Part shown: positions 1,272 through 64,000 of the stretch, one piece after another
Layout: every line of letters starts with the position of its first letter
Numbering within the stretch: position 1 is the stretch's first letter
From: Tragulus kanchil
Taxonomy: Eukaryota; Chordata; Mammalia; Artiodactyla; Tragulidae
Length of the DNA: 64,000 nucleotides
Assembly: GCA_022376925.1 (NCBI GenBank)
Contig: JAIOJX010000032.1
Location: 204,844,939-204,908,938, forward strand
Reading direction: 5' to 3'
Position numbers and translations under genes: made by a program
Notes under the pieces: generated by a model
The model's input: the letters and a program-made list of their open reading frames with translations, nothing else
Told to the model about the DNA's origin: nothing
The model's database searches: none

Positions 1272-1765
1272 TTCCTTTGGAAACTCTTTCTCTTTCTCTG
1301 TTCTGCGATATTATAGTCAGTCCCAAAGCCTCTACAATGAGCACGTGACCCAAGCTAAGCCAATAAGACTCTATCCTGGGAATCCGAATGCTGAGTGGGA
1401 ATTCAGGGATGAGAGGTTTGAAGTTGAGTCATGGATTCATCCTCTGGAGATCCCCTCTCGCTTGGTCAGTTCTTCCTTCAATTTTGTAAACTCCCTGCTG
1501 TCCTTCCAACAGATTGTCTTCTTTTATTTCATCTAACCTAGAATTGATTCCTGTCTTCTGAAACAAAGAGCCCTAGATGATACGGCACCTTATTGTCTAC
1601 AGAATGAAGTAGGCAAACCTCTCATCCTGTGTTACAAATACTCCACAATTGTGTTTGCCTCTTACTTAATGGCCCTTCCCTAACTAAACTTAAGTCCTTG
1701 TGCAACAATCCCCTGGGAGCTAGCTATTAGGCTGTTTGCATTTTATGGGCAAAAAGGAGGCCCAG

Positions 1766-2084
1766 GGCTTCCCCTGGTGGTCCAGTGGGTAAGGACACCA
1801 CCTTGCAGTGCAAGGGGCGCCGGTTCGATCCCTGGCCTGGGAAGATCCCACGTGCCGCGGAGCGGCTGGACTGATGTGTCCAATTACCGAGCCGGAGCTC
1901 TGGCGCGCATGCGCCCAGAGCTGGTGCTCTGCGACCACAGATGCCACCGCGATGGGAGGCCCACAGGAGCCAAAGAACAAAGACAGACGAAAATATAGAA
2001 AGACCAACAGAAGTGGCCCGCCCGCTCCCCTCCCTCCCCAACCCGACCCCGCCCAAAATAAACAAATAAATCTTTAAAAAAAAA
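1766..2084 (+). mobile_element. Long CHR-type tRNA-Glu SINE
   Basis: The SINE has a tRNA-like head with A box tggtccagtgg and B box ggttcgatccc. A CpG-rich body follows (cacgtgccgcggagcggctg), then a C-rich 3' part and a tail of aaataaa units with ctttaaaa. It is flanked by a perfect TSD, aaaaaggaggcccag, at 1751-1765 and 2085-2099, as expected of L1-machinery insertion. A second copy in duplication 1 is listed separately. Confidence 0.9.
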
Positions 2085-2869
2085 AAAAAGGAGGCCCAGT
2101 TCATTTCTGTCCTATGACAGATGGCTTGACGTATTTCAGTCAGATATAATTGAGAACTAGCTCTGACATTTAAAAGTAAGGAAAGGCATCCTGTGGCCCA
2201 AAGTAGAAATGTTTCCTAGAGACTAAGATTACAGAGAATTTGGGTATCAACCAAGTTCTGGGGATATTTTTTAAAGTATATACTAAAGGATATATCCTAT
2301 TTCTTTGGCTAGAAATTAGATTTGGAAGTTTAAGATAGAGGGCCTTTTTACTGGATGCTCAGAGAAGAGTTGGCTTTCCTTTGGAAACTCTTTCTCTTTC
2401 TCTGTTCTGCGATATTATAGTCAGTCCCAAAGCCTCTACAATGAGCACGTGACCCAAGCTAAGCCAATAAGACTCTATCCTGGGAATCCGAATGCTGAGT
2501 GGGAATTCAGGGATGAGAGGTTTGAAGTTGAGTCATGGATTCATCCTCTGGAGATCCCCTCTCGCTTGGTCAGTTCTTCCTTCAATTTTGTAAACTCCCT
2601 GCTGTCCTTCCAACAGATTGTCTTCTTTTATTTCATCTAACCTAGAATTGATTCCTGTCTTCTGAAACAAAGAGCCCTAGATGATACGGCACCTTATTGT
2701 CTACAGAATGAAGTAGGCAAACCTCTCATCCTGTGTTACAAATACTCCACAATTGTGTTTGCCTCTTACTTAATGGCCCTTCCCTAACTAAACTTAAGTC
2801 CTTGTGCAACAATCCCCTGGGAGCTAGCTATTAGGCTGTTTGCATTTTATGGGCAAAAAGGAGGCCCAG

Positions 2870-3186
2870 GGACTTCCCTAGTGGTCCAGTGGGTAGGACA
2901 CCACCTTGCAGTGCAAGGGGCGCCGGTTCGATCCCTGGCCTGGGAAGATCCCACGTGCCGCGGAGCGGCTGGACTGATGTGTCCAATTACCGAGCCGGAG
3001 CTCTGGCGCGCATGCGCCCAGAGCTGGTGCTCTGCGACCACAGATGCCACCGCGATGGGAGGCCCACAGGAGCCAAAGAACAAAGACAGACGAAAATAAA
3101 GAAAGACCAACAGAAGGGGCCCCGCCCGCTCCCTCCCTCCCCAACCCGACCCGCCCAAAATAAACAAATAAACCTTTAAAAAAAAA
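2870..3186 (+). mobile_element. Long CHR-type SINE, duplicate of the 1766 element
   Basis: It has the same TSD (2855-2869 and 3187-3201) and body as the element at 1766. The identical insertion site shows this is a copy of one insertion, not a second insertion. It differs by a few substitutions and by C, G and A run lengths. Confidence 0.9.
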
Positions 3187-3447
3187 AAAAAGGAGGCCCA
3201 GTTCATTTCTGTCCTATGACAGATGGCTTGACGTATTTCAGTCAGATATAATTGAGAACTAGCTCTGACATTTAAAAGTAAGGAAAGGCATCCTGTGGCC
3301 CAAAGTAGAAATGTTTCCTAGAGACTAAGATTACAGAGAATTTGGGTATCAACCAAGTTCTGGGGATATTTTTTAAAGTATATACTAAAGGATATATCCT
3401 ATTTCTTTGGCTAGAAATTAGATTTGGAAGTTTAAGATAGAGGGCCT

Positions 3448-5552: not shown

Positions 5553-7816
5553 GTGGACTAAAATCAGCCTCTGGCTAGCTTCCCTGCACACCCACTCTTG
5601 TGGGGAATCCCCACTTTCACCCCCATCACCACACCCACCATTACCCAAGGCAAATCTTGGCAAAGGGGAGCGAAAGAAATGCGGGAACCCTGGATAGGAG
5701 AGGAAGAGTTGCCAGGCTTCTGGGCACCCTTCCCACCCTCTGCAGGGTCCCATCTAACAGGTCCTTGCACCTGGAGGCACTGTGTGGGCTGCTCAGAGCC
5801 CAGACTTGTGGCAGCAGTGGCCAACACATCCGCAGGAGGTGACCGTCCCCTCCCACCACGTCCACACTGGTAAGAACTGGAAGGGGCTTTAGCATAAGTA
5901 GTTTAATTCTAACTTAACCATGGGTGGGCGGAGGAGGGAGCCAGACACTAAATATAGTCAGTCAGTCTCCTATTTCTGGGGTATTCCTAGAAGCTTGAGA
6001 AGGGGGAAGGGAATTTGATCAACCACCTTCTGGCAGGCTTTGTGCTCTATAATTTTCAATCCTCACAAAAGCTTCATGGAGCAGATGCTGTTCTTCTCGT
6101 GGAGAGTTACGAGACTGAGGTTCAAAGAGGTGAAGGAATTTTCTTGGCTAAGGTCACGTGACAGATCAGTGCCCAGGGCTCAGTGAAAATTGAGTCGCCC
6201 TCCCGTTTCGTTCACCAGCGTTCCATGCTCCCTGTTGTCCTTCTCTAGAATCTTCCTTCAGCAGAGAGATAAACAGCATCACCTTTTCCCCAGGCCACCG
6301 CATCTGAGACCAGGAGCCAGCTCCCCAGCTCCCGCTGCCCGCTGCCCATTACTCTGTGGCCCCGGCCCCCTGGGCACCTTCTACCAGTGCCTAGCTGATT
6401 CAGGCTCCTCTCTCTTCTTCCTCAATCATGTTTCCTACAAACGTAGGCCAGAGCACAAAAAAACTCTAAAGTGTTAAGAAAAAAAGCCAAGTGAGGAGGC
6501 TGAAAGGTTATCCATTTGGTTTGCCTGTTTTGACGGAAGGGCGTAGGGAGGGAACCTCTTTCACTCCTGTTGTGACATGTAGCAGATGCTTTACCTGTGT
6601 TGCAGTGATTTTGCATATTGATTCCTCAGCCGTGAGAAACTTTCCAACCACTCCAGGCCTCCTGTGATCTCTCCTTTAAAGGCTGTGGACTAAAATCAGC
6701 CTCTGGCTAGCTTCCTGCACACCCACTCTTGTGGGGAATCCCCACTTTCACCCCATCACCACACCCACCATTACCCAAGGCAAATCTTGGCAAAGGGAGC
6801 GAAGAAATGCGGGAACCCTGGATAGAGAGGAAGAGTTGCCAGGCTTCTGGGCACCCTTCCCACCCTCTGCAGGGTCCCATCTAACAGGTCCTTGCACCTG
6901 GAGGCACTGTGTGGGCTGCTCAGAGCCCAGACTTGTGGCAGCAGTGGCCAACACATCCGCAGGAGGTGACCGTCCCCTCCCACCACGTCCACACTGGTAA
7001 GAACGGGAAAGGGGGCTTTAGCATAAGTAGTTTAATTCTAACTTAACCATGGGTGGGCGGAGGAGGGAGCCAGACACTAAATATAGTCAGTCAGTCTCCT
7101 ATTTCTGGGGTATTCCTAGAAGCTTGAGAAGGGGGAAGGGAATTTGATCAACCACCTTCTGGCAGGCTTTGTGCTCTATAATTTTCAATCCTCACAAAAG
7201 CTTCATGGAGCAGATGCTGTTCTTCTCGTGGAGAGTTACGAGACTGAGGTTCAAAGAGGTGAAGGAATTTTCTTGGCTAAGGTCACGTGACAGATCAGTG
7301 CCCAGGGCTCAGTGAAAATTGAGTCGCCCTCCCGTTTCGTTCACCAGCGTTCCATGCTCCCTGTTGTCCTTCTCTAGAATCTTCCTTCAGCAGAGAGATA
7401 AACAGCATCACCTTTTCCCCAGGCCACCGCATCTGAGACCAGGAGCCAGCTCCCCAGCTCCCGCTGCCCGCTGCCCATTACTCTGTGGCCCCGGCCCCCT
7501 GGGCACCTTCTACCAGTGCCTAGCTGATTCAGGCTCCTCTCTCTTCTTCCTCAATCATGTTTCCTACAAACGTAGGCCAGAGCACAAAAAAACTCTAAAG
7601 TGTTAAGAAAAAAAGCCAAGTGAGGAGGCTGAAAGGTTATCCATTTGGTTTGCCTGTTTTGACGGAAGGGCGTAGGGAGGGAACCTCTTTCACTCCTGTT
7701 GTGACATGTAGCAGATGCTTTACCTGTGTTGCAGTGATTTTGCATATTGATTCCTCAGCCGTGAGAAACTTTCCAACCACTCCAGGCCTCCTGTGATCTC
7801 TCCTTTAAAGGCTGTG
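5553..7816. repeat. Direct duplication 2 (about 1.13 kb)
   Basis: Copy A is 5553-6687 and copy B is 6685-7816, offset 1132 falling to 1129. The copies abut with a shared gtg and no linker. Copy B lacks several single bases in C, G and A runs that copy A has. The content is non-coding and includes a MIR-like stretch. Its last 90 bp overlap the start of duplication 3, so that stretch occurs three times (about 6598, 7726 and 8837). Confidence 0.95.
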
Positions 7817-9934
7817 CCCACAGCCTTAGCACTTGCCTAAGAAACTGATTTATCCTGTAATGTTCTCTTACTGTTGTATATGGACATGTTATGACCAACC
7901 ACTGTCCCCACCCCATGTTAAACTTACGGGTTTTGCTCTATACTCCATCTGGGCTTCCTAACACTGAGTTACTAATGAGTTCTTGTTGACTAAATGATTG
8001 GCTGACCAGTATGACGGACCATTCAATTGAAACCTGAAAGGTCGAAACCACACCCAGACCTCAGAAGACCAGGGACTAGAGAAAGAAGCCAATCTTCATG
8101 ATGTCTTGCTTTCAATGCAAAACTCAGTCTCTGGAGGAAGCCATTCCTATAACCACGATCCTCTCCCACCTAAAGGAAACTTCCTCCAGCTCCTGGGAAA
8201 CCATTCCCCACTTCCCCTTGGAACTCAGGAGTTAACATAATTATCTCAGCGGCTCTGCTAGGCCCTTTATGAATCTTATCTTAGTTAATCCCCACAGTCA
8301 ACCATTTCACAGCTAAGAAAATTCACGATCAGAAAGGGCAAGTTGCTCTGATGTACAGCCAACCAGTAAAAAGCAGAAATGGGATCAGCACCCAGGTGCC
8401 CTGGGCCACAAAGCACCAGGTCCCCTGACGCTCTTGTTTGTGCTTCATCTCAACCAGATTCAAGGCTCCTCAAGGTGGAGACCAGGTTGGGGTTCCCCAC
8501 AAGCCTCCGCACAGGGCAGGGGCCTAGTGAGTGTTGGCTCAGTGAATTGCCAGGAAGTTTACCCTGATTATGCATTGTGTGAGAAAAAGTATTGGGGGAA
8601 AGAGGAAATGTTTGTGTAGTGATAAGGCCTGTGTGCTTGAGGGTGGCCCCACGTCCTGGGCCAGCCACAAGAAGTGGGAGTGTGGGCAGCAGAGTGGAGC
8701 CTGCTGAGAGGCCCCACCCTGGCAGCCGCCAAGGGGAGAACTGAGGGAGGCTGGAGACCTGGGATCCGGTGAAGGATGGAGCAGCATCCCGGAGGTTGAC
8801 TGGCTCTGCTTCCCTGAGCATGCTGGGTGAGGACAGGTGTTGCAGTGATTTTGCATATTGATTTCCTCAGCCGTGAGAAACTTTCCAACCACTCCAGGCC
8901 TCCTGTGATCTCTCCTTTAAAGGCTGTGCCCACAGCCTTAGCACTTGCCTAAGAAACTGATTTATCCTGTAATGTTCTCTTACTGTTGTATATGGACATG
9001 TTATGACCAACCACTGTCCCCACCCCATGTTAAACTTACGGGTTTTGCTCTATACTCCATCTGGGCTTCCTAACACTGAGTTACTAATGAGTTCTTGTTG
9101 ACTAAATGATTGGCTGACCAGTATGACGGACCATTCAATTGAAACCTGAAAGGTCGAAACCACACCCAGACCTCAGAAGACCAGGGACTAGAGAAAGAAG
9201 CCAATCTTCATGATGTCTTGCTTTCAATGCAAAACTCAGTCTCTGGAGGAAGCCATTCCTATAACCACGATCCTCTCCCACCTAAAGGAAACTTCCTCCA
9301 GCTCCTGGGAAACCATTCCCCACTTCCCCTTGGAACTCAGGAGTTAACATAATTATCTCAGCGGCTCTGCTAGGCCCTTTATGAATCTTATCTTAGTTAA
9401 TCCCCACAGTCAACCATTTCACAGCTAAGAAAATTCACGATCAGAAAGGGCAAGTTGCTCTGATGTACAGCCAACCAGTAAAAAGCAGAAATGGGATCAG
9501 CACCCAGGTGCCCTGGGCCACAAAGCACCAGGTCCCCTGACGCTCTTGTTTGTGCTTCATCTCAACCAGATTCAAGGCTCCTCAAGGTGGAGACCAGGTT
9601 GGGGTTCCCCACAAGCCTCCGCACAGGGCAGGGGCCTAGTGAGTGTTGGCTCAGTGAATTGCCAGGAAGTTTACCCTGATTATGCATTGTGTGAGAAAAA
9701 GTATTGGGGGAAAGAGGAAATGTTTGTGTAGTGATAAGGCCTGTGTGCTTGAGGGTGGCCCCACGTCCTGGGCCAGCCACAAGAAGTGGGAGTGTGGGCA
9801 GCAGAGTGGAGCCTGCTGAGAGGCCCCACCCTGGCAGCCGCCAAGGGGAGAACTGAGGGAGGCTGGAGACCTGGGATCCGGTGAAGGATGGAGCAGCATC
9901 CCGGAGGTTGACTGGCTCTGCTTCCCTGGCATGC
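7726..9934. repeat. Direct duplication 3 (about 1.1 kb)
   Basis: Copy A is 7726-8823 and copy B is 8837-9934, offset 1111. The junction carries a 13-nt linker (8825-8836 region) that replaces the true continuation. Each copy contains a MIR remnant (8235-8400 and 9346-9511). The copies are nearly identical. Confidence 0.95.
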
Positions 9935-11590: not shown

Positions 11591-12406
11591 CTTTTTTTTA
11601 ACTTTTACTTTTTTTTTTTTAATTTATTTATCTTTTGGGGGGGTGAGGTGGGGAGGGAGGGGGATGGGTGGGCCACTTCTATTGGTCTTTCATTTCTCCG
11701 TTTTCATCCGTCTTTGTTCTTTGGCTCCTGCGGGCCTCCCATCGCGGTGGCCTCTGTCGTTGCAGAGCACCGGCTCCGGGCGCATGTGCCCCAGAGCTCC
11801 AGCTCAGTAATTGGACACATCAGTCCAGCTGCTCCGCGGCACGTGGGATCTTCCCAGGCCAGGGATTGAACCGGCGCCCCTTGCACTGCAAGGCGGTGTC
11901 CTTACCCACTGGACCACCAGGGGAAGCCCTTATTTTACTTTTAACTTTTAGAGTTTTGTTGTTTACAGATATGTATGTTCCCAGATTAGTCATATGTATA
12001 TCCCCCACATCCCACCCCTCCAGACCGTCACACAGCACACCTGCAAGATCCCCTTTTCTCACAGAGCAATGACTAAAGCTATTTTCTTCACATATGATAG
12101 TGCAGGCCTTCATGGTACTTCCTTTACGCCTCCCACTCACTGTTCCTTCCCCACAATGTCCATATGTCCACTGTCCATGTCTGTTTCTCCATTGCTTCAC
12201 TGCATGTGCCATCATCACCATCCTACTAGATTCCATATATATGTGTTAGTATATTGTACTTATCCTTCTCTTTTTGACTGACTTCACTTTTTATGATAGG
12301 TTCTAGATCCAGCCACCTCATTAGGGCTGATTCTTCTGCATTTCTTTTTATAGCTGTGTAGTATTCCATTGTATATATGTACCAGAGCTTTTGTATCCAT
12401 TTGTCG
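11591..12406 (-). mobile_element. 5'-truncated L1 with ORF2 C-terminus, nested SINE in its tail
   Basis: On the minus strand, 12406 down to 12226 encodes the end of L1 ORF2: KWIQKLWYIYTMEYYTAIKR, then WLDLEPIIKSEVSQKEKDKY and a stop after HIYGI. The 3' UTR runs to about 11930 and ends in the tail ctgtaaacaacaaaactcta-like text. The T-rich end continues at 11591-11608 across an inserted SINE. A TSD, agattatcataa, at 11579-11590 and 12407-12418 brackets the insertion. It is a dead, strongly truncated copy. Positions 12325-12406 recur at 13419-13500 through duplication 4. Confidence 0.8.
11609..11929 (-). mobile_element. Long CHR-type SINE inside the L1 tail
   Basis: A minus-strand SINE with T run, G-rich block, conserved body (tccagctgctccgcggcacg) and head ending ggggaagccc. 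It sits between the poly(T) end and the 3' UTR of the antisense L1 at 11591-12406. It is the youngest layer of this nest. Confidence 0.88.
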
Positions 12407-12429
12407 AGATTATCATAAAATTTTATAAG

Positions 12430-12556
12430 AATTTTACTTAAATAATTTTTGGCCACACCCTGAGGCATATGGGACTTAGCTCCCCTACTAGGGATCCAAC
12501 CCATATCCCCTGCATTGGAAGATGGCGTCTTAACCACTGGGCCACCAGGGGAGTCC
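12430..12556 (-). mobile_element. CHR-2-like SINE
   Basis: A minus-strand element from ttttggccacaccctgaggc to aaccactgggccaccagggg and gagtccc, the complement of the CHR-2 tRNA-like head. It is repeated at about 13524-13650 in copy B of duplication 4. Confidence 0.8.
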
Positions 12557-12640
12557 CTATCATTAGATTGAGTAGAGCTCCCTGTGCTATATAGTAAGCC
12601 CTTGTTGGTTATCTATTTTATACATGTTACTGTGTAAATA

Positions 12641-12846
12641 GAGCTTCCCAGGTGGCTCAGTGGTAAAGAATCCGCCTGTGAACGGAAGAGACATGGGTTT
12701 ATCCCTGGTTCAGGAAGATTCCCTGGAGGAGGAAACAGCAACCCATTCCAGTATGCTTGTCAGAGTTATTCCACAGATAGAGGACCTGGCGGGCTAGAGT
12801 CCATGGGGCCGCAAAGAATCAGACATGACTAAAGTGACTGAGCATG
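12641..12846 (+). mobile_element. Bov-tA SINE
   Basis: The head is gagcttcccaggtggctcag; the body has aaagaatccgcctg, ggttcaggaagattccctgg and gctagagtccatgggg; it ends in tcagacatgactaaagtgac. It is duplicated at about 13735-13937. Confidence 0.88.
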
Positions 12847-13050
12847 TCTTGGTGTGTATGTTAGTCCCAAACTCCTAATTTATCCCTCCCTTCAACATTA
12901 TATTAGCTTCAGGTGTGCAAGAATTGTGCAAATTATTGAATAATGATTCGATATTCGTATACATTCGTATACATTGCAAAATGATGACCTGGGCTTTAAG
13001 GATGAATCAGGATTTTGTATGCCCTTCTACCCTTCTCCACCTGGAGCCTA

Positions 13051-13421
13051 TATTGGATTGAACTGTGTCCCCCAAAAGATATGTCTAAGTCCTAATCCCT
13101 GGAACCTGTGAATGTGACTGGAATTGGAAAAACAGTCTCTGCTGATGTAATCAAGATAATGACCTCGAGATGAGATCATCCTGGATTATCTGGGTGGACC
13201 CTAAATCCAAAAGACACAGAAGAGAAGTCCATCTGAAGACAGAGGCAGGGTCTGGAGCTTTGCTGCCACAAGCCAAAGACTGCCTGAAACCACCAGGAAG
13301 TGGAGGAGGCAAGGAAAGAGATTTCATATGGAGCATGTCAGTGCTGACACCGTAATTTCAGCCTTTTGGCCTCCAAAACTGACAGAATACACTCTTGCTG
13401 TTGTAAGCCACCAAGTATGGC
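13051..13421 (+). mobile_element. MLT1-type (ERVL-MaLR) LTR, 3' end cut by duplication
   Basis: Ancient LTR text: gaactgtgtcccccaaaaga, then gtcctaatccctggaacctg, tcagccttttggcctccaaa and gttgtaagccaccaagtatgg. The copy stops at the duplication 4 junction, where the L1 fragment resumes. Non-coding; no viral gene is present. Confidence 0.7.
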
Positions 13422-14141
13422 TGATTCTTCTGCATTTCTTTTTATAGCTGTGTAGTATTCCATTGTATATATGTACCAGAGCTTTTGTATCCATTTGTCG
13501 AGATTATCATAAAATTTTATAAGAATTTTACTTAAATAATTTTTGGCCACACCCTGAGGCATATGGGACTTAGCTCCCCTACTAGGGATCCAACCCATAT
13601 CCCCTGCATTGGAAGATGGCGTCTTAACCACTGGGCCACCAGGGGAGTCCCTATCATTAGATTGAGTAGAGCTCCCTGTGCTATATAGTAAGCCCTTGTT
13701 GGTTATCTATTTTATACATGTTACTGTGTAAATAGAGCTTCCCAGGTGGCTCAGTGGTAAAGAATCCGCCTGTGAACGGAAGAGACATGGGTTTATCCCT
13801 GGTTCAGGAAGATTCCCTGGAGGAGGAAACAGCAACCCATTCCAGTATGCTTGTCAGAGTTATTCCACAGATAGAGGACCTGGCGGGCTAGAGTCCATGG
13901 GGCAAAGAATCAGACATGACTAAAGTGACTGAGCATGTCTTGGTGTGTATGTTAGTCCCAAACTCCTAATTTATCCCTCCCTTCAACATTATATTAGCTT
14001 CAGGTGTGCAAGAATTGTGCAAATTATTGAATAATGATTCGATATTCGTATACATTCGTATACATTGCAAAATGATGACCTGGGCTTTAAGGATGAATCA
14101 GGATTTTGTATGCCCTTCTACCCTTCTCCACCTGGAGCCTA

Positions 14142-14535
14142 TATTGGATTGAACTGTGTCCCCCAAAAGATATGTCTAAGTCCTAATCCCTGGAACCTGT
14201 GAATGTGACTGGAATTGGAAAAACAGTCTCTGCTGATGTAATCAAGATAATGACCTCGAGATGAGATCATCCTGGATTATCTGGGTGGACCCTAAATCCA
14301 AAAGACACAGAAGAGAAGTCCATCTGAAGACAGAGGCAGGGTCTGGAGCTTTGCTGCCACAAGCCAAAGACTGCCTGAAACCACCAGGAAGTGGAGGAGG
14401 CAAGGAAAGAGATTTCATATGGAGCATGTCAGTGCTGACACCGTAATTTCAGCCTTTTGGCCTCCAAAACTGACAGAATACACTCTTGCTGTTGTAAGCC
14501 ACCAAGTATGGCAGCCCTGGGAAACTAGTAACACA
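14142..14535 (+). mobile_element. MLT1-type (ERVL-MaLR) LTR, complete 3' end
   Basis: This is the copy B version of the LTR at 13051. It continues past the duplication into gcagccctgggaaactagta and acaca, the normal 3' end of this LTR class. The continuation shows that copy B's right flank is the true one. Confidence 0.7.
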
Positions 14536-24302: not shown

Positions 24303-25268
24303 AAAAACTAATATACCACTGAGTAGATTATCTATCATATCGCTTAGAACAAGGATAAAATAATCAAACTAAGCTTCCTAAGTAGATACCTCATAAAACA
24401 ATCATTATATGACATTTCTCAAATTTTAAAATGCTTTACAGCTCCTTTATATTTGTTCTTGTTTTGTTTATGGAACTTCAGTTCCAGGAAAAGAACTAGG
24501 TAGGCTGAAGGAAGTTTTAAATACAGAAGAGCTATTTAATTTGCTAAGTGCAGACAGTCCATCTTCTGGGTATTTCTGTAGATGCTCTGTAAACATGAAT
24601 CAAAGTAGACAATTCTATAAAAAAAAAAGTAGATAATTCTAAACATAGGCTGTGGCGTACTCTTTTTCATCTTCCTATTTTCTTCAGCCTTGAATAGTTA
24701 TAGCATCCCCATAATGATTAAATCAACAGACATGTCAATATGCATGCATGGTATCGTCTGGCTCACAGCAGGTGGTCAATAAATATTTGTTAAACGAAAG
24801 CATGAAAGACTGTTATGTAAATTTTCTTACTATGACTAGTATGAAGATATTTTAAACTTTACAATACACCAATACTTGCCCTTCAGGTACATTTATCTGG
24901 CAACCCACATTAGATCCATCTCCCACACTGGGCTAAGACAGTGACGACTCCATTTCAATACTAATCCAAATTTAGCTTGAATGCTACCTAGCAGGGCAGA
25001 TACTCAATGTCTACTAAATAAGATGCATATTCACAAATCAGTTACTATAGTCCTAATAGCTCGCGCAGGAGCACAAGCTGAACATCTCCAGCTCACATTC
25101 ACCAAGTGACCTCTACCTCTTCTCTGAGGTTCTGGTCCTCACTCGCCTAATAGCCAAATTAGACTCATTCCTCAGCCCTTCGAAGTCTTCCTCTTTCGCG
25201 CTCTATGTTCCAAATGTCACCAAAGTGCCGAGACTGCACACACTCTGCCTCCGCCTCACGCCCAGCGT

Positions 25269-48736: not shown

Positions 48737-48772
48737 ATTATGACATGTTCGAAGTGTGTTTTGAGAGCAAGG
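48661..48772 (+). CDS. TMED10: TMED10 coding exon 2
   Basis: The exon is preceded by a pyrimidine-rich acceptor ending ttacttttag and followed by a perfect donor, AGG|gtaagt at 48773. It encodes [14 protein letters not shown], then [10 protein letters not shown] and [11 protein letters not shown], plus the first base of a glycine codon. This is the middle of the GOLD domain, and the cysteine in EVCFES is the disulfide partner of the exon 1 cysteine in this family. It begins in phase 0 and ends after one base of a codon, matching exon 3. Bases 48661-48736 fall inside copy B of duplication 13, so a damaged version of the same exon lies about 1.09 kb upstream. This copy is intact and is the functional one. 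Confidence 0.96.
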
Positions 48773-50703: not shown

Positions 50704-52947
50704 GTGTCACATTTATTCATTTGCTGGAATGCTCTCTTCCCAAATAAACATAAGTTTACCTTTAGTTCTTTTAGAATACTTCCCCTCAGCCATTCTTGTC
50801 TGCTTAATATCTCTGTTGACTCATCCATCACTGTTACAGGTGTTGGGGAGATAGCAGTGAATACAACGGAAGTTTCTGCTCTCGATGGAGCTTACATTTT
50901 CATTGGAGCAAACGGACAATAGACACATATAAGTCAGATGGTACTGAGGGATTGGGGGAAAAGCAAACACCTTGAGATACTGGGCATATCTGAGAAACAG
51001 TAAGGAGGTCAGTATGGCTTCCTCTGAATAGTGCATCACTTACTACTGGATTGTTTCAATATTTGAATATATTTGTATATCTCTCACACAGACAGCCTTA
51101 TGTTGTTTAAATGTCTTATGTGTGTATCTTACATTCCCAATTTGGAACTTCCTGAAGGCAGAGATTATCCTTTGTTTTAAATTTCTTCTATGCTGATGCT
51201 GTGCATGTAAATGCCTAGGAACTAGTTTTAAAATGTGTGACGGCCTGGAGGGGTGGGATGGGGGGATATACATGTGACTAATCTGGGATCATACATTATC
51301 TGTAAACAACAAAACTCTGTAAAAGTAAAAAGTAAAATAAAAATTTTAAAAATATGTGTGTGTATATACATGTATAAATGTGTGTATGCACACATGTATT
51401 ATAGTCAGTACTCAATTTCTAGTTTTATTTGTGTTTATTCATTTGTTTAGTCTGATATGAAAACTTGATACCTTGTGGTCCTTGGAGCACCTTTTGAAAA
51501 ATTGTGTATTTTCCAGGCAAAAGCAAAGAGGAATTACTAAAGGGTCTTTTACAGAGGAGACCCTTTAGGGCCATGATACCAGCTAAGGGTATAGGCTGGC
51601 TGTTGTGTGCAGGAATCTGTATGGTCTGGTCTCAGATGCTCTGTGGTTCTGCGGTTTCACTTGAGTGTGAATAATTCTGCTGAAGCTGTGCTGTGGCTGA
51701 CAGAGAGATGGTGGGAAGAGTCTGTTAGGAGAGAGTACCTTGATCATCTGGACCAGGTGGAGCTGGGAGCTGCTTGGATTCACTTTTAAATGAGGAAGGA
51801 CCAGGTTGGGAGACCTCTGGGTGTCACATTTGCTGGAATGCTCTCTTCCCAAATAAACATAAGTTTACCTTTAGTTCTTTTAGAATACTTCCCCTCAGCC
51901 ATTCTTGTCTGCTTAATATCTCTGTTGACTCATCCATCACTGTTACAGGTGTTGGGGAGATAGCAGTGAATACAACGGAAGTTTCTGCTCTCGATGGAGC
52001 TTACATTTTCATTGGAGCAAACGGACAATAGACACATATAAGTCAGATGGTACTGAGGGATTGGGGGAAAAGCAAACACCTTGAGATACTGGGCATATCT
52101 GAGAAACAGTAAGGAGGTCAGTATGGCTTCCTCTGAATAGTGCATCACTTACTACTGGATTGTTTCAATATTTGAATATATTTGTATATCTCTCACACAG
52201 ACAGCCTTATGTTGTTTAAATGTCTTATGTGTGTATCTTACATTCCCAATTTGGAACTTCCTGAAGGCAGAGATTATCCTTTGTTTTAAATTTCTTCTAT
52301 GCTGATGCTGTGCATGTAAATGCCTAGGAACTAGTTTTAAAATGTGTGACGGCCTGGAGGGGTGGGATGGGGGGATATACATGTGACTAATCTGGGATCA
52401 TACATTATCTGTAAACAACAAAACTCTGTAAAAGTAAAAAGTAAAATAAAAATTTTAAAAATATGTGTGTGTATATACATGTATAAATGTGTGTATGCAC
52501 ACATGTATTATAGTCAGTACTCAATTTCTAGTTTTATTTGTGTTTATTCATTTGTTTAGTCTGATATGAAAACTTGATACCTTGTGGTCCTTGGAGCACC
52601 TTTTGAAAAATTGTGTATTTTCCAGGCAAAAGCAAAGAGGAATTACTAAAGGGTCTTTTTACAGAGGAGACCCTTTAGGGCCATGATACCAGCTAAGGGT
52701 ATAGGCTGGCTGTTGTGTGCAGGAATCTGTATGGTCTGGTCTCAGATGCTCTGTGGTTCTGCGGTTTCACTTGAGTGTGAATAATTCTGCTGAAGCTGTG
52801 CTGTGGCTGACAGAGAGATGGTGGGAAGAGTCTGTTAGGAAGAGAGTACCTTGATCATCTGGACCAGGTGGAGCTGGGAGCTGCTTGGATTCACTTTTTA
52901 AATGAGGAAGGAGAAGCAAACATTTGGATTTGGGAGAAGAGACCTCC
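50704..52947. repeat. Direct duplication 14 (about 1.12 kb), TMED10 intron 2
   Basis: Copy A is 50704-51827 and copy B is 51821-52947, joined at a shared gtgtcac. The end of copy A is a compressed version of the end of copy B between ggaagga and gggtgtcac. The start of copy B lacks eight bases (attcattt). Otherwise the offset is 1109. Each copy carries an L1 3' end. Confidence 0.95.
51241..51350 (+). mobile_element. L1 3' end, intron 2
   Basis: The text ggcctggaggggtgggatgg, then catgtgactaatctgggatc, tgtaaacaacaaaactctgt and aaaataaaaattttaaaaa is a 5'-truncated L1 3' end. The same sequence in antisense ends the L1 at 11930-12020. Short flanking repeats (aaaatgtgtg / aaaatatgtgtg) suggest a TSD. 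It is copied at 52350-52459. Confidence 0.7.
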
Positions 52948-53622: not shown

Positions 53623-55130
53623 CTTAGTTTCCCAGTCTTACCTATTCAGTCTTATTTTATTACTTTCAAATTGGTCTGGTCTAGCCAAAAGAACTTTACT
53701 GTCTTTTAAACATGCCTCACTCTTCCTTCCTCCCTTCCTCCCATCCTTGGAGCTGGGTCTTTGTTGCTGCTCACAGACTTTCTCTAGTTGCAGAAAGTTG
53801 GGGCTACTCTTTAGTTGTGGAGGTGGGTTCTTATCCATGGTACCACTAGGAAAGTCCTCCACTTCTTCCAATAGCTAAGTCTTTGCCCATATGTTCTCCT
53901 TTGCCTGGATATTTTCTTTGCCTTCAGGTGCTGCCTCGCAAGTGAGGCCTGTCCACAGCTAATCTCTTCCCTCTCCTGACCTTTGCTCCATAGCTGGGAT
54001 TATCTGAACCATTTCTAGTTTAGTTTTTTCTTTAAAGTTTTAGACTGCTTTGTATTTTCACTGTAGCTGTTATGCATATTTATGTCTTAGGTGCTCATCG
54101 AATTTTTTGAAGGCAGAGAGTGCAGTCAGCTAGCATAGTTCTAGCAGCTTGTGAATTCTCAATGAATTGTTTTTAATGTTTCAGAAAACCTACAGTGTTT
54201 CTCTGGGTACAGTGCATTCTCTGTGGCTTATGGTCTCAGGAACCACAGTGCTTAAGTGGCACTGTTTGCCATCACTCCTGATTTCATGCAGTTAGTTGTT
54301 CATTTTATAACCAATCAGGTGAATTCCAGGGGGTTGGGATTAAGCACTTTTCTGGGGCTCTGGAATCCTTTGCTTTTTCCTCCTTGATAAGATGAGAATT
54401 CTTTTTGATCAGATTACCTTTTCTAATGGGAGCATTGCTCTGTTGGAGCAAAACTCAGATGGAATTTTCTGTATGTAAGAAGCATCTCTGAGAATTATAG
54501 TCTTACTACTGAGTTTCTTCTTGGGCTCTTCTCAGAGCTTGGTGGGAATAGTCCTGTACCATTTTATTTACCTACTGAAATGGCCTTACATTGACCAAAA
54601 CTTTTAAAATAAGTAGAATAGTAGACAAATCCTATGTCCTTTTCAGTACTTATGTTTGTAAGTCAATTCAAACTTAGCATGTACCTAGTAATCTCAAAAT
54701 TTCACAGGTCAGCCTTTTCAGATGTGAAAATTTGCCTTTTCAGCCTGAGTGGGTGCCCACTACCTACTGATCTCTACGCCACTCCATTCTGTACTGTTGT
54801 GACTTACTTCCTAACCCAGTGAGCCTGTGTGTGTTTCTCCTGTACTGTTCCTCTGAACTTCAGCTGTGGGATAGCGTGTGTCCCGCTCCCTCAGAGATGT
54901 TTGCCGGCAGCTTGTTCTTGTCTCTTTCCGGCACCCCACACAGATAGAGGCTTTGTCTGGAATGCTTGTGATTTTAGCCAGAGCCAGGAATTTTCTGCAG
55001 CTGAGGAGGGGGAGGAGTTGTGGCTGTTTCCCTCTATTGAGAGGGTAGGGGTTAGGAGAGGGAGGGTGGGCGGGTGATTTCCCGGAATTTTAAATATTCT
55101 GCACAATGAATCCTTTGATTTCTTTCTCAG

Positions 55131-55204
55131 GAACAGGGCGGATACCCGACCAACTTGTGATCCTAGACATGAAGCATGGAGTGGAGGCAAAAAATTACGA
55201 AGAG
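55131..55204 (+). CDS. TMED10: TMED10 coding exon 3 (first of two identical copies)
   Basis: The exon follows a strong acceptor (tttctttctcag) and ends at the donor GAG|gtatgt. With the last base of exon 2 it encodes [18 protein letters not shown] followed by EAKNYEE, the end of the GOLD domain before the coiled coil. The exon is 74 nt and asymmetric (enters in phase 1, leaves in phase 0). An identical copy with the same splice sites lies at 56244-56317, inside duplication 15. Sequence alone cannot say which copy is the real position, and only one should be in a transcript model. Confidence 0.95.
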
Positions 55205-56243
55205 GTATGTCTGACAGCCGGTGGAGGCAGTAACTGGCCATTCTGTGAGGTTTCTGGGACCTAGTCCCAGGCCAACAGGCTGTGCTTTGCCCAGAAGGCT
55301 GTGGTTTTCTCAGCAGTCATGTGACAGCCAGCTTGGTGTAAAAAGTTGTGTGAACAGCCTTGAACAATAATTCTGGCCATGCTGTCAGCCAAATGACTGG
55401 ACCAACTGTCCCATTGAAATGTTTGTGTGATAAAACACTCAGGCACATGCCATAAGTGCTCTTGAGAAAACCCGATATGTATTTAGAATTTTAAGAAGCT
55501 AGAATTCATTAATATTAATGTTCAGATTACCTTTTCTAATGGGAGCATTGCTCTGTTGGAGCAAAACTCAGATGGAATTTTCTGTATGTAAGAAGCATCT
55601 CTGAGAATTATAGTCTTACTACTGAGTTTCTTCTTGGGCTCTTCTCAGAGCTTGGTGGGAATAGTCCTGTACCATTTTATTTACCTACTGAAATGGCCTT
55701 ACATTGACCAAAACTTTTAAAATAAGTAGAATAGTAGACAAATCCTATGTCCTTTTCAGTACTTATGTTTGTAAGTCAATTCAAACTTAGCATGTACCTA
55801 GTAATCTCAAAATTTCACAGGTCAGCCTTTTCAGATGTGAAAATTTGCCTTTTCAGCCTGAGTGGGTGCCCACTACCTACTGATCTCTACGCCACTCCAT
55901 TCTGTACTGTTGTGACTTACTTCCTAACCCAGTGAGCCTGTGTGTGTTTCTCCTGTACTGTTCCTCTGAACTTCAGCTGTGGGATAGCGTGTGTCCCGCT
56001 CCCTCAGAGATGTTTGCCGGCAGCTTGTTCTTGTCTCTTTCCGGCACCCCACACAGATAGAGGCTTTGTCTGGAATGCTTGTGATTTTAGCCAGAGCCAG
56101 GAATTTTCTGCAGCTGAGGAGGGGGAGGAGTTGTGGCTGTTTCCCTCTATTGAGAGGGTAGGGGGTAGGAGAGGGGGGGTGGGCGGGTGATTTCCCGGAA
56201 TTTTAAATATTCTGCACAATGAATCCTTTGATTTCTTTCTCAG

Positions 56244-56317
56244 GAACAGGGCGGATACCCGACCAACTTGTGATCCTAGACATGAAGCATGGAGTGGAGG
56301 CAAAAAATTACGAAGAG
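56244..56317 (+). pseudogene. TMED10: Second copy of TMED10 exon 3 (probably an assembly duplicate)
   Basis: All 74 bases and both splice sites are identical to 55131-55204, at an offset of 1113 bp. Splicing both copies in series would shift the frame: the second copy would read EQGGYPTNL and stop at a TGA after nine residues, because 74 is not a multiple of three. A real fixed tandem exon would therefore have to be spliced as mutually exclusive alternatives. The copy lies wholly inside one of 17 similar 1.1-kb duplications, so artefactual duplication is much more likely than a new exon. Confidence 0.85.
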
Positions 56318-56640
56318 GTATGTCTGACAGCCGGTGGAGGCAGTAACTGGCCATTCTGTGAGGTTTCTGGGACCTAGTCCCAGGCCAACAGGCTGTGCTT
56401 TGCCCAGAAGGCTGTGGTTTTCTCAGCAGTCATGTGACAGCCAGCTTGGTGTAAAAAGTTGTGTGAACAGCCTTGAACAATAATTCTGGCCATGCTGTCA
56501 GCCAAATGACTGGACCAACTGTCCCATTGAAATGTTTGTGTGATAAAACACTCAGGCACATGCCATAAGTGCTCTTGAGACAGAAACCAGATATGTATTT
56601 AGAATTTTAAGAAGCTAGAATTCATTAATATTAATGTTCA

Positions 56641-58649
56641 AGATAAATAAAAGTGATTTTTTTTCTTTTTTTTTTTTGTCCCCAAAGTGACAGCTACATG
56701 TATGTAGCTAGGGCATGGATTCAGTGCTATTTAGACTTCAACAGCTGTGCTGCCTTTGAGAAACACAATAATCAAAAGTAGCTTTTAGTTAAAATAACTT
56801 CTGATTTTTCCAAAAGAGAGTAAGATGGAAGAAAACACTGCAAGAGACGAGGAGTTTTGCTGACAGGAAGTATTGTAGAGCATAAAAATAGGCATTTGTT
56901 TGGGTGGTAGGGCACTAGAAGTGTGCATAGAATTAGGGGAAGGGGACCGAGCCCTTTTAATCTACTGTGAGAGACTCCGGGGGCAGCACAAAATGGTTTT
57001 TCAAATGCCGAGCACCTGTGAAAAACCACAAGCCCTATTTAAGACTGGAGGATTGATCTTTACAGAAAGATAAGAGTGTTTTTTACCAGATCAGTCTTTT
57101 TATGGCAGTACCTGAAGGCATGTAGAAGAGATGGAAGTATAAATGGCTTTTGAAGAATGTAAACTGAATAAGCAAAGGAAAGTTGTTTTAAGTGATTTAA
57201 AATTTTCTAGGAATGATGAAATAGGAGAAGTTACTCTATTTCTGGTCAGAATTTGGAAGGGAAATATCCTAAAATGGAAGAAGATTGGAAGCCAGTGGCT
57301 GGCTGTGCAATAGGAAGTTGTAGTACAGTAATTGCGGGTCTCTGGGTCTTTCCTCTTTCTCCCTAGTTCATAGGTTCAATTGAACAGAACTAGACTGAGT
57401 TATTTGTAGGCAAGTGATGCAGTTGTGAATGGAAGACAGTTCCTGGTAGAGACTTCGGTTTGCTTGTTTCCGTCTCTGGGCTAGTTTAACTAAAAGAAAT
57501 GAAGCCAAGAGCTTTTTTGTTTGATGAACTTAAGAGTAAATTGAAAAATTCTCTTAAACTTTTAAGACTTCAGAAGATTCCTAATTATATTTAGTAAGTT
57601 AAAGCACTGTTGTATGATATAAAACACTAAGAAAAATGTTTTATTTATGAGTTTGAAGAATAGGTCAAAGGATTTTCAGTTTTTGAGTACTACTGCTATA
57701 TTCTCAGATAAGATATTAGACATCGCTGCTGCTTCTCTCAAAGAGCTGGCGTTATTTTGAGTTTACATATTAATAATGTGGACATCACTATTTTATAGTG
57801 TTTTAGAACCCCTGTACCACCTGGAATTTCCATCCTCCTTGGACTTTGTTGACACTGGGAAAGAGCCTTTATCTTTCCTGACGTTTTACTTAACCTGAGA
57901 GGGGAATCCCTAGCAGAAAGGAAACCACGGTGCTTCCTTTGCCTGCTTCCTGCTTCCTGCTTCTGCAGTCTGGCACGTTGTAAGCCTTTCTTTACGCACA
58001 TGGTTACAACACAACTCAAAATTCTCTTTCTTAACCAAGAAACGCCTCCCCCTACTTTCTTGGGTGACCTACCTCCTCACTCCCCTACCCCTCAAAAAGT
58101 AGATCAAACAGACTGAGGAGGTCACGTGGCCAAAGACCAGTCCAGGGCTAGGCTCCCTTGAACCTTGCTTAGAAATAGCTATTAGTTCTCTCTGGGCTAA
58201 GGCCTATGACAGGAACATGGATAATAGAAGCACTTGTGTAATTACCTGAGAGCACTGAGCATACATAGAGGTTTTGAGGGGTTTAATTTCAGGCCCTTTA
58301 GGCAAGGAAGGGTTTATCTCCAGAGGACTGGGGCCCTTCAGCATCAATATTTTGATTCAGGAAGGTGGTAGATTTCTTGTAATGTTTTTGCACATTTGAC
58401 ATGCCTCTCCCTCACATTTGTGGGCTTTGTAATTCTGAAATCCCAGGTGGTCTGTACAGTTAGGTAGTAATCATTGTCTAAATAGCTGGACAGAGTACCA
58501 TGCTACCTACTAAACTGTTCTGGAGGATTAGTTAATGCATGTGAGTTGCTGTGTAAACACAGTACAAATGTAAGGCCACATTACTTGAAGGCAGAGTGGT
58601 TGCCATTTTGTAAGGAAACATAGTCTTGTAGTTTGAAACCTTTAGAGAA
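56641..58649 (+). other. TMED10: TMED10 intron 3, unduplicated stretch
   Basis: No recognisable repeat over about 2 kb apart from a T-run near 56660-56680 and a tcctgcttcctgcttc microrepeat at 57945-57962. Exon 4 (starting IAKVEK in other mammals) is not found here. Confidence 0.7.
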
Positions 58650-60816
58650 AGAATACATATTTTCCCAGAAATAAAACATTCTTAATTCCCTCCGATATAT
58701 TTTAAGGACTTCTCACCACTATCTTTTACCCCTAAGAGGGTGGTATTTTTATAGAGTCAGTCTGAATTGAACCATTTCTTTTTAGTTTGTGATCTTTGAA
58801 CTAGAACAGCTGTTCACAGGGACTTACTATCTAATCTTACAATTGTGGGAATGAAAGCAGTGTCCCATGAGGAGGGAACTGTCTTGAGATATCCTCTAAC
58901 TCTTGGGCTGTGTGTGTCCCTTTTTGCTTAGCCGTCAGTATTTTCAGCACAACTAAAATCATATGTTGCCTAAGGGTTCTATTAGTATTGTCATTTGCTA
59001 CCAACAGATACACCAAGAACTCAGCTGCCCTTGTTGGAGCAACAGATGAAGCCTTTCCAAAAGTTCTATTTCTGTGAGTGCCTTCACAAAGAAGGAATTC
59101 TAGTTCCACAAGCTAGATCCAAAATCCCTTTCTTGACCTAAGTGAAATAACATGGGTAAGGCACCTGACATAGAGGTGATCACTTCAGTAGATTTTAGCT
59201 CTCTTCTCCTACCCTGTCTAGAAGCTGCCAGGTGGCTGTGACAGAGTAAACAGGACCTTCCTAAATTTCATTCATTTAGTCCTAAGAATGACAGCCTTTT
59301 CTGGACTTATCTTGGCACACAGTTGACCTTTTGACCTTTGTTGAAGAAGTCTGTGATCCATGTGCCCCCATGCATACATAGACTTGGCTCTGGGTGTAAG
59401 TCTGTCTTCATTGTCTTGAATGTGTTAGACTAGGTGGTCTCCATGGTTATTGCTGTGCTTCTAAATGTTGCAGGGGGAGTGGACGTAGCAGATTCGTTTG
59501 CCTGAATCCTCATGAAGCTTCTGTCTTGAGTTTCTCAGTGTTCCTTCCACCAAGGGAACGAATTTTGCGATTCCCTGGAGGCTGACTCCATGTGTGTTTT
59601 AAGAAGCAGTCTTTCAGATTTAACACCTTTCCTTTCAGATTTAACACCTTTCCTTGGTATAAATACATAGAACTCTGAACTCTGTAGAGTTCAGATCATT
59701 AAAGGAATGGAAGATGTGGATATAGTTTAAGGGAGAATACATATTTTCCCAGAAATAAAACATTCTTAATTCCCTCCGATATATTTTAAGGACTTCTCAC
59801 CACTATCTTTTACCCCTAAGAGGGTGGTATTTTTATAGAGTCAGTCTGAATTGAACCATTTCTTTTTAGTTTGTGATCTTTGAACTAGAACAGCTGTTCA
59901 CAGGGACTTACTATCTAATCTTACAATTGTGGGAATGAAAGCAGTGTCCCATGAGGAGGGAACTGTCTTGAGATATCCTCTAACTCTTGGGCTGTGTGTG
60001 TCCCTTTTTGCTTAGCCGTCAGTATTTTCAGCACAACTAAAATCATATGTTGCCTAAGGGTTCTATTAGTATTGTCATTTGCTACCAACAGATACACCAA
60101 GAACTCAGCTGCCCTTGTTGGAGCAACAGATGAAGCCTTTCCAAAAGTTCTATTTCTGTGAGTGCCTTCACAAAGAAGGAATTCTAGTTCCACAAGCTAG
60201 ATCCAAAATCCCTTTCTTGACCTAAGTGAAATAACATGGGTAAGGCACCTGACATAGAGGTGATCACTTCAGTAGATTTTAGCTCTCTTCTCCTACCCTG
60301 TCTAGAAGCTGCCAGGTGGCTGTGACAGAGTAAACAGGACCTTCCTAAATTTCATTCATTTAGTCCTAAGAATGACAGCCTTTTCTGGACTTATCTTGGC
60401 ACACAGTTGACCTTTTGACCTTTGTTGAAGAAGTCTGTGATCCATGTGCCCCATGCATACATAGACTTGGCTCTGGGTGTAAGTCTGTCTTCATTGTCTT
60501 GAATGTGTTAGACTAGGTGGTCTCCATGGTTATTGCTGTGCTTCTAAATGTTGCAGGGGGAGTGGACGTAGCAGATTCGTTTGCCTGAATCCTCATGAAG
60601 CTTCTGTCTTGAGTTTCTCAGTGTTCCTTCCACCAAGGGAACGAATTTTGCGATTCCCTGGAGGCTGACTCCATGTGTGTTTTAAGAAGCAGTCTTTCAG
60701 ATTTAACACCTTTCCTTTCAGATTTAACACCTTTCCTTGGTATAAATACATAGAACTCTGAACTCTGTAGAGTTCAGATCATTAAAGGAATGGAAGATGT
60801 GGATATAGTTTAAGGG
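58650..60816. repeat. Direct duplication 16 (about 1.08 kb), TMED10 intron 3
   Basis: Copy A is 58650-59733 and copy B is 59734-60816, exactly abutting. The offset is 1084, then 1083 after one C is lost in a C-run (gtgcccccatg against gtgccccatg). Both contain a local tandem of two cagatttaacacctttcctt units (59615-59655 in copy A). The content is otherwise unassigned intron. Confidence 0.95.
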
Positions 60817-61659: not shown

Positions 61660-61829
61660 GTCTTCCTTCCAATCATGGAAGAGAAAAGTAGACTCGAATA
61701 ATGGTCTGTCTTCATGAAACATGTATAATTTCACATTCTTTCAGACACTTTGAACATTAAATCAGATGTTTAGAAGAGCAGAACAGCAGTCAGTGGAGAT
61801 ATTAATAGAGGTTTTCTTGTTAGCTTTTT

Positions 61830-62451
61830 TTAAAATTTTTTTTTCTTTTCCCCATCATGCCTCTTTTATTTATATTTATTTTCATCCATCTTTTTTTTTT
61901 TTAAAGATTTACTTATTTATTTATTTTGGGCGGGGGTCGGGTTGGGGAGGGAGGGGAGCGGGCGGGCCACTTCCATTGGTCTTTCATTTCTCTGTTTTCA
62001 TCCGTCTTTGTTCTTTGGCCCGTGTGGGCCTCCCATCACGGTGGCGTCTGTCGTTGCAGAGTGCTGGCTCTGGGCGCATGCGCTCCAGAGCTCCGGCTCG
62101 GTGATTGGACACATGGGTCCAGCCGCTCCACGGCACGTGGGATCTTCCCAGGCCAGGGATCGAACCGGTGCCCCTTGCAGTGCAAGGTGGTGTCCTTACC
62201 CACTGGACCACCAGGGGAAGCCCACATCCATCTTTTTTTATTCTTTGGGATGTGTGGGCCTCCCATCGCAGTGGCCCCTCTCATAGCAGAGCACCGGCTC
62301 TGGGCGCATGTGCTCCAGAGCGCTGGCTTGCAACTGGACACACTGGTCCAGCCACTTTGTGGCATGTGGGATCTTCCCAGACCAGGAATCGAACCGGTGC
62401 CTCTTGCACTGCAAGGCGGACCCTTTAACTACTATACCACCAGGGAAGCCC
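61830..62451 (-). mobile_element. CHR-type SINE interrupted by a younger SINE, intron 3
   Basis: A minus-strand older SINE: its T/A-rich tail is at about 61830-61891 and its body at 62224-62451 (tctttgggatgtgtgggcct to aactactataccaccaggg). Flanking repeats tcttgttagcttttt and tcttgttcgcttttt (about 61815 and 62452) mark its target site. It is copied at 62992-63613. Confidence 0.82.
61892..62223 (-). mobile_element. Long CHR-type SINE nested in the older SINE's tail
   Basis: The target duplication catccatctttttt (61883 and 62225) lies in the tail of the older SINE. It has the G-rich block gggcgggggtcgggttgggg and a CpG-rich body. It is copied at 63054-63385, where one G of the block reads T. 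Confidence 0.88.
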
Positions 62452-62502
62452 TCTTGTTCGCTTTTTGTACTGACTTTCATTCCACTCAGAAGTCTGGAGA
62501 GA

Positions 62503-62790
62503 GGGCTTCCCTCGTGGTCCAGTGGGTAAAGAGTCCTCCTTGCAGTGCAGGGGGCACTGGTTCGATCCCTGACCTGGAAAGATTGCACATGCCGTGGACC
62601 AACTGGACTGGTGTGCCCAGTTATGAGCCAGTGCTCTGGAGCACCTGTGCCTAGAGCTGGTGCTCTGCAATAAGGGAGGCCACTGCAATGGGAGGCCGAC
62701 ACAAGCTGAAGAATAAAGATGGACAAAAAGAAATAAATAAAGCAATAAAAGAGGCCAAAATTAAAAATAATAATAATAACTTAAAAAAAA
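62503..62790 (+). mobile_element. CHR-type SINE in opposite orientation, intron 3
   Basis: A plus-strand SINE from gggcttccctcgtggtccag to a (taa)n and A-rich tail, with TSD agtctggagaga / agtctagagaga (62491-62502 and 62791-62802). It faces the minus-strand SINE ending at 62451 about 50 bp away, making a long imperfect inverted repeat. It is copied at 63665-63952. Confidence 0.87.
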
Positions 62791-64000
62791 AGTCTAGAGA
62801 GAATTTAGTGGGTATATGAAAGTCTTCCTTCCAATCATGGAAGAGAAAAGTAGACTCGAATAATGGTCTGTCTTCATGAAACATGTATAATTTCACATTC
62901 TTTCAGACACTTTGAACATTAAATCAGATGTTTAGAAGAGCAGAACAGCAGTCAGTGGAGATATTAATAGAGGTTTTCTTGTTAGCTTTTTTTAAAATTT
63001 TTTTTTCTTTTCCCCATCATGCCTCTTTTATTTATATTTATTTTCATCCATCTTTTTTTTTTTTAAAGATTTACTTATTTATTTATTTTGGGCGGGGGTC
63101 GGGTTGGGGTGGGAGGGGAGCGGGCGGGCCACTTCCATTGGTCTTTCATTTCTCTGTTTTCATCCGTCTTTGTTCTTTGGCCCGTGTGGGCCTCCCATCA
63201 CGGTGGCGTCTGTCGTTGCAGAGTGCTGGCTCTGGGCGCATGCGCTCCAGAGCTCCGGCTCGGTGATTGGACACATGGGTCCAGCCGCTCCACGGCACGT
63301 GGGATCTTCCCAGGCCAGGGATCGAACCGGTGCCCCTTGCAGTGCAAGGTGGTGTCCTTACCCACTGGACCACCAGGGGAAGCCCACATCCATCTTTTTT
63401 TATTCTTTGGGATGTGTGGGCCTCCCATCGCAGTGGCCCCTCTCATAGCAGAGCACCGGCTCTGGGCGCATGTGCTCCAGAGCGCTGGCTTGCAACTGGA
63501 CACACTGGTCCAGCCACTTTGTGGCATGTGGGATCTTCCCAGACCAGGAATCGAACCGGTGCCTCTTGCACTGCAAGGCGGACCCTTTAACTACTATACC
63601 ACCAGGGAAGCCCTCTTGTTCGCTTTTTGTACTGACTTTCATTCCACTCAGAAGTCTGGAGAGAGGGCTTCCCTCGTGGTCCAGTGGGTAAAGAGTCCTC
63701 CTTGCAGTGCAGGGGGCACTGGTTCGATCCCTGACCTGGAAAGATTGCACATGCCGTGGACCAACTGGACTGGTGTGCCCAGTTATGAGCCAGTGCTCTG
63801 GAGCACCTGTGCCTAGAGCTGGTGCTCTGCAATAAGGGAGGCCACTGCAATGGGAGGCCGACACAAGCTGAAGAATAAAGATGGACAAAAAGAAATAAAT
63901 AAAGCAATAAAAGAGGCCAAAATTAAAAATAATAATAATAACTTAAAAAAAAAGTCTAGAGAGAATTTAGTGTATTAAAGACAGGATTGAGTAGGGGTTT

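Follow-up and report, generated by a model that had tools for sequence, protein, structure and literature searches.

We examined a 64,000-nucleotide stretch of the Tragulus kanchil genome assembly GCA_022376925.1 (contig JAIOJX010000032.1, positions 204,844,939 to 204,908,938 of the forward strand), referred to here as the window. The window contains coding exons of the TMED10 gene and 17 stretches of about 1.1 kb that are each present twice, in tandem and in direct orientation, as determined by comparing the window with itself by BLAST (megablast, identity of at least 85%). A formal chance test was judged needless for 17 near-identical kilobase pairs. The two copies of each pair are designated A and B in the order in which they occur, and the window can be described as a chain of blocks, each running from one B copy through the next A copy. 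Copy A measures 1061-1151 bp (mean 1097, SD 26, 17 pairs), the copies of a pair are 98.5-100% identical by BLAST, and the A copies of consecutive pairs start 1.85-5.08 kb apart. The initial annotation had reported 17 direct 1.1-kb pairs with offsets of 1077-1163 bp and about 18.8 kb of redundancy, and both statements hold: the A-to-B offsets are 1078-1163 bp and sum to 18,846 bp of redundant sequence. The window has no N bases, and no gap separates the copies of any pair. The pairs, to which no strand is assigned, are as follows (window positions from self-BLAST).

Pair 1: copy A 1272..2345, the end of a block; copy B 2376..3447, the start of the next.
Pair 2: copy A 5553..6687; copy B 6685..7816, which has lost five single bases within its first 150 bp.
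Pair 3: copy A 7726..8823, with 91 bp in common with copy B of pair 2; copy B 8837..9934.
Pair 4: copy A 12311..13421; copy B 13406..14512, its start over-extended by BLAST (best gapless cut after 13423-13425).
Pair 5: copy A 16922..18033; copy B 18085..19196, identical to A.
Pair 6: copy A 20471..21557; copy B 21600..22680, with 6 bases lost near its start.
Pair 7: copy A 24451..25581; copy B 25567..26700, with its end 110 bp before the start codon of TMED10.
Pair 8: copy A 29531..30607; copy B 30616..31693.
Pair 9: copy A 31580..32648, with 114 bp in common with copy B of pair 8; copy B 32669..33736.
Pair 10: copy A 33434..34525, with 303 bp in common with copy B of pair 9; copy B 34517..35607.
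Pair 11: copy A 38359..39437; copy B 39437..40514.
Pair 12: copy A 41513..42573; copy B 42614..43676.
Pair 13: copy A 46555..47641, ending within TMED10 exon 2; copy B 47647..48740, continuing into the rest of the intact exon 2.
Pair 14: copy A 50718..51800; copy B 51827..52912.
Pair 15: copy A 54406..55527; copy B 55519..56644; TMED10 exon 3 in each (also by tblastn).
Pair 16: copy A 58650..59733; copy B 59734..60816.
Pair 17: copy A 61660..62810; copy B 62822..63972.

The units had been described as unrelated in sequence. At 85% identity or above, matches between different units were confined to dispersed repeats resembling short interspersed nuclear elements (SINEs; 143-380 bp) and to three overlaps between neighbours, in agreement with that description. 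These overlaps (3 of 16 cases) span 91, 114 and 303 bp, so that the bases concerned are present three times. Removal of each A copy together with the spacer that follows it left 45,154 bp, and a re-scan of this collapsed sequence (plus strand) found solely dispersed direct repeats of 143-380 bp and 82-92% identity.

The TMED10 exons were located by tblastn with a human TMED10 sequence as query. Residues 1 to 138 were found on the + strand as three coding exons, whose identity was confirmed by sequence match to solved TMED10 chains in the PDB; later TMED10 exons were not among the tblastn matches in the window. The following copies are present.

26810..27034, + strand: TMED10 exon 1, coding part, found in one copy, its 3' limit inferred (tblastn, PDB match).
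47573..47641, + strand: false partial exon 2, with 11 bp missing, cut mid-exon before its 3' end.
48661..48772, + strand: intact exon 2, limits set by splice signals.
55131..55204, + strand: exon 3, first copy, its length of 74 nt set by splice signals.
56244..56317, + strand: exon 3, second copy, identical to the first.

The initial annotation had counted a single exon among the affected sequences. An exon is indeed involved, but the doubling reaches two TMED10 coding exons, exon 2 in part (pair 13) and exon 3 as a whole (pair 15). In the solved chain 21gl_D the residues of exon 2 match once (45-82), as do those of exon 3 (82-107), and the two sets are adjacent, with the split-codon glycine common to both. 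The frame of exon 3 was read after the last base of exon 2, for which the equal base preceding exon 3 was substituted. If both copies of exon 3 were spliced, translation of the second would begin on a codon boundary and run into a stop after nine codons. When one copy per pair is ignored, exons 2 and 3 each occur intact once, which supports the initial proposal that the pairs are unmerged overlaps of consecutive assembly blocks. A pattern search for TMED10 exon 1 in viral contigs gave 89 pattern matches, none of them confirmed, and so supplied no outside single-copy locus.

These exons also bear on the alternative that the pairs are real, that is, tandem duplications of about 1.1 kb arising every 2-5 kb through an unknown process, with templated insertions at the junctions. 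The pairs are, after all, present in the sequence as given. However, a real duplication would have to accommodate a doubled exon 3, with its premature stop if both copies are spliced, and a broken exon 2 alongside the intact one. Moreover, we know of no process by which seventeen such duplications, all alike in size, would arise within 45 kb. We regard real duplication as extremely improbable, and the same holds for its more specific form, a replication- or repair-linked process, likewise unknown, that copies a fixed length whatever the sequence in a mammalian genome.

The junctions between copies were compared with their surroundings. A spacer is absent at 7 of the 17 junctions, where 0-3 bp are common to the two sides at the best gapless cut; for pairs 7 and 15, indels close to the unit end make this gapless refinement of boundaries unreliable. 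The remaining ten junctions carry a spacer of 5-51 bp between A and B. Six of these, of at least 20 bp, entered the final test, and the four shorter ones were excluded.

2346..2375, no strand: junction 1 spacer, 30 bp, weakly but not significantly similar to its own downstream flank (score reached by 176/3000 controls).
18034..18084, no strand: junction 5 spacer, 51 bp, corresponding to the upstream flank of copy A but rich in deletions (0/3000).
21558..21599, no strand: junction 6 spacer, 42 bp, corresponding to the upstream flank of A minus 14 bases within the alignment (0/3000).
32649..32668, no strand: junction 9 spacer, 20 bp, not significantly similar to its own flanks (1440/3000).
42574..42613, no strand: junction 12 spacer, 40 bp, corresponding to the upstream flank of A minus 12 bases within the alignment (0/3000).
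51801..51826, no strand: junction 14 spacer, 26 bp, corresponding to the downstream flank of B minus 12 bases within the alignment (0/3000).

Each spacer was tested against 3000 random flank pairs, its own flank excluded, and against the flank pairs of the 16 other junctions. Spacers 5, 6, 12 and 14, four of the six long ones, match their own outer flank with a score that no control of either kind reached. Relative to the flank they lack 18, 14, 12 and 12 bases (56 in total) and have 5, 0, 0 and 0 insertions and no mismatches, counts that were taken from best local alignments with affine gap costs, a scoring that prefers gaps to mismatches. This final test is the one relied on. The initial look at the spacers had used 200 random windows per spacer, and in an earlier version of the affine local alignment, in which the random windows could contain the spacer's own flank, spacer 1 gave a p value of 0.03 and matches to both flanks were obtained for spacers 5 and 12. 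The deletion-rich spacers have the appearance expected of a sparse consensus of deletion-prone reads, unlike a clean breakpoint.

Polymerase-theta end joining leaves junction inserts copied from nearby flanks, and inserts of this type could mimic the spacer result under real duplication. However, the four matching spacers are co-linear copies of the flank with many deletions, and the seven spacerless junctions have just 0-3 bp in common under the gapless model. Biological tandem duplication is recognized by boundary repeats, microhomology or clean breakpoints; what was found instead is 0-3 bp of common sequence and degraded flanks at four of the six long spacers.

The differences between copies point in the same direction as the spacers, toward unmerged overlaps. 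The 18,684 aligned columns contain 72 differences, namely 31 substitutions and 41 indels, 25 of the latter in homopolymers. Among indels within 200 bp of a unit end, the copy lying at the end of its block is the base-poor one in 24 of 27 (binomial p about 2e-5), and the corresponding untrimmed counts are 19 of 22 within 100 bp and 25 of 29 within 300 bp. Since over-extension by BLAST could inflate this polarity, the 25 of 72 differences within 20 bp of the alignment ends were dropped, leaving 47 (15 substitutions and 32 indels). The trimmed indels run in the predicted direction in 12/13, 17/18 and 18/20 cases within 100, 200 and 300 bp, respectively, and with one vote per unit end the ratios are 9/10, 9/10 and 9/11 (p = 0.011, 0.011 and 0.033). 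Differences are also denser near the unit ends (6.25 per kb at 20-100 bp from them vs. 1.97 per kb mid-unit). The preferential loss of bases from the block-end copy speaks further against real duplication.

A divergence of 0-1.5% between copies might also be expected from heterotype false duplication, in which two parental haplotypes stand side by side, and some of the 15 substitutions left after end-trimming are possibly heterozygous sites. However, the differences are mainly indels, many of them in homopolymers, and are crowded at the unit ends and polarised rather than spread as single-nucleotide polymorphisms; haplotype bubbles would not all measure 1.1 kb; and pair 5 shows no difference between its copies across 1112 bp. 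Heterozygous haplotypes were rejected on this pattern, and we hold them to be very unlikely. Pair 5 also combines its identical copies with the longest spacer of the 17 (51 bp), which is deletion-rich. From this contrast, the quality of the consensus seems to be uneven along the contig.

The geometry of the blocks is informative as to how the overlaps may have arisen. The 16 complete blocks range from 1857 to 5041 bp (mean 3768), and the overlap is nearly constant in length (1061-1151 bp). Such a combination of constant overlap and variable blocks is what would be expected of fixed-length nodes joined by variable edges. Both features of an assembler of the wtdbg type are present, a unit (1097 +/- 26 bp) near 1024 raw bases and a variable block length. 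Programs of this family, wtdbg and wtdbg2, work with 256-bp bins, share nodes between edges, allow edges of variable length and normally merge their consensus sequences. The graph points of wtdbg2 (Redbean) are 1024-bp read segments (PMC7506008, PMC7730629).

The pairs could accordingly be explained as follows. The contig would be built from noisy long reads as a path of nodes, each of about 1024 raw-read bases, and edges. Every edge would receive its own consensus, including the node at either end, so that neighbouring edge consensuses share one node. If the shared node was not successfully aligned and merged at the window's 17 junctions, the blocks would simply be joined end to end; copy A would then be the node closing one block and copy B the same node opening the next. 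Where coverage at a block end was poor, the tail of that block would continue in degraded form into the sequence downstream of B, and the head of the next block would likewise carry a degraded copy of the sequence upstream of A. The spacers would correspond to such ends, with bases dropped.

The pairs are almost certainly an artefact of some kind. With only slightly less assurance, and whatever the program, the 17 doubled stretches appear to be overlapping consensus blocks that were concatenated without merging. This reading, already put forward in the initial annotation, is supported by the degraded spacers (four of the six long ones), the polarised indels and the constant overlap with variable blocks, and it is favoured because unmerged overlaps predict these marks and plain biological duplication does not. 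The assembler is likely to have been of the wtdbg/Redbean type (fuzzy-Bruijn, 1024-bp nodes), and the reads were probably nanopore.

It is possible, though we think it considerably less likely, that an artefact of the same class came from other software, through polishing chunks or contig ends concatenated untrimmed; this would still be a case of unmerged overlaps, and our confidence in these covers it. The marks at the block ends fit any error of unmerged overlap. Fixed-size chunking is less favoured, however, because it predicts constant blocks, whereas these vary from 1857 to 5041 bp with overlaps of 1061-1151 bp, and a fixed-chunk polishing overlap was rejected as first choice for this reason. 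The report of the Vertebrate Genomes Project describes false duplications from other assemblers, including one due to a bug in FALCON, but also contig-boundary overlaps of about read length that are gapped after scaffolding (PMC8081667); the window, in contrast, is free of N and has 17 junctions within its 64 kb.

Several observations weigh against unmerged overlaps of 1024-bp nodes. Two of the six long spacers (1 and 9) have no significant match to their flanks, the own-flank score being reached by 176 and 1440 of 3000 controls and by 1 and 6 of 16. In a jump alignment of all 17 junctions with linear gap costs, which are too harsh on deletions, junction 6 alone outscored every one of its swapped-flank controls, of which there were 16 for junction 17 and 15 for each of the others. 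The copies of pair 5 show no difference at all, 3 of 27 indels have the opposite polarity (1 of 18 after trimming), and the untrimmed substitutions within 100 bp, 13 at left and 7 at right ends, are uninformative on polarity. The unit mean of 1097 lies 7% above 1024, which requires either that the raw reads fall short of the consensus by about 7% (1024/1097 = 0.933) or that the node ends are fuzzy. A net deletion in raw reads is characteristic of nanopore rather than older PacBio data. At 303 bp, the longest of the three overlaps between neighbours slightly exceeds one bin of 256 bp, which is about the most by which adjoining wtdbg nodes would be expected to overlap. Finally, a whole genome built in this way would reach about 1.4 times its true size, and such an excess should not escape curators. 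With simulated reads of mediocre quality, Redbean gave significantly oversized assemblies; low-quality reads gave significantly smaller assemblies than these, and with real reads the size did not differ significantly from the references (PMC7730629). Since these results are mixed, they neither prove nor exclude a duplication fault.

Apart from the pairs, the window contains a family of dispersed repeats of about 290-340 bp that occur in both orientations; the matches between members listed by self-BLAST (at least 85%) have about 86-93% identity. The family resembles a cetartiodactyl tRNA-derived SINE. Its members are given below, with both orientations represented in the family.

1765-2089: dispersed repeat.
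4313-4643: dispersed repeat.
11609-11930: dispersed repeat.
19845-20166: dispersed repeat.
22717-23054: dispersed repeat.
40640-40929: further member.
49552-49844: further member.
53061-53395: further member.
61891-62223: further member.

ARAGORN made two tRNA predictions in the window. The tRNA-Cys prediction (49765-49841, - strand) lies within a dispersed repeat and fits the head of a tRNA-derived SINE rather than a tRNA gene. The tRNA-Gly (ccc) prediction (53539-53613, - strand), about 130-140 bp beyond another dispersed repeat, may be a gene or part of a repeat. A scan of the window for RNA families gave no match at the gathering score.

As biology, the doubled stretches most likely mean nothing. 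For data quality, however, they do matter. The error would make the TMED10 locus about 42% too long, and if the fault is assembly-wide, the same excess would apply to the assembled sequence at large. Gene models of TMED10 might then include exon 3 twice along with an additional, broken exon 2, and false matches would swamp surveys of segmental duplication, exon gain and copy number. The polarity and spacer tests need the assembled sequence alone and could help to flag the fault in other genomes without reads.

Among known kinds of false duplication, the window can be compared with the cases of false exon gain listed by Ko et al. 2022, for which divergent haplotypes are the main source (PMC9516828). 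As in those cases, a coding exon of one gene occurs twice through false duplication. In contrast to them, TMED10 exon 3 was doubled by a likely unmerged overlap, and exon 2 was doubled in part. With respect to wtdbg and wtdbg2 (Redbean), the doubled unit resembles the node of 1024 raw bases, which is normally merged at consensus. The matches listed in our literature search included no report of wtdbg node merging failing along a whole contig, which is no proof that the fault is unpublished. The closest relation is to the "homotype" false duplication, a known assembly error in which overlaps arise at contig boundaries (Vertebrate Genomes Project, PMC8081667). As in its "overlapping sequences" type, a stretch is written twice in tandem, an overlap at a piece boundary having gone unremoved, and no haplotype difference is needed. 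The window shares with this class the tandem, near-identical copies (98.5-100%) and a drop in consensus quality at the block ends. The homotype cases described there lie at contig boundaries, are about as long as a read and carry a scaffold gap, whereas the TMED10 window is gap-free, with 17 doubled stretches of 1.1 kb each in 64 kb. A gap between the copies, which PMC9516828 lists as a trait of pairs on the same scaffold, is absent here, there being no N in the window. We do not consider this trait to be defining inside a contig, and we therefore take the present case to be a relative of the homotype class, not its scaffold type.

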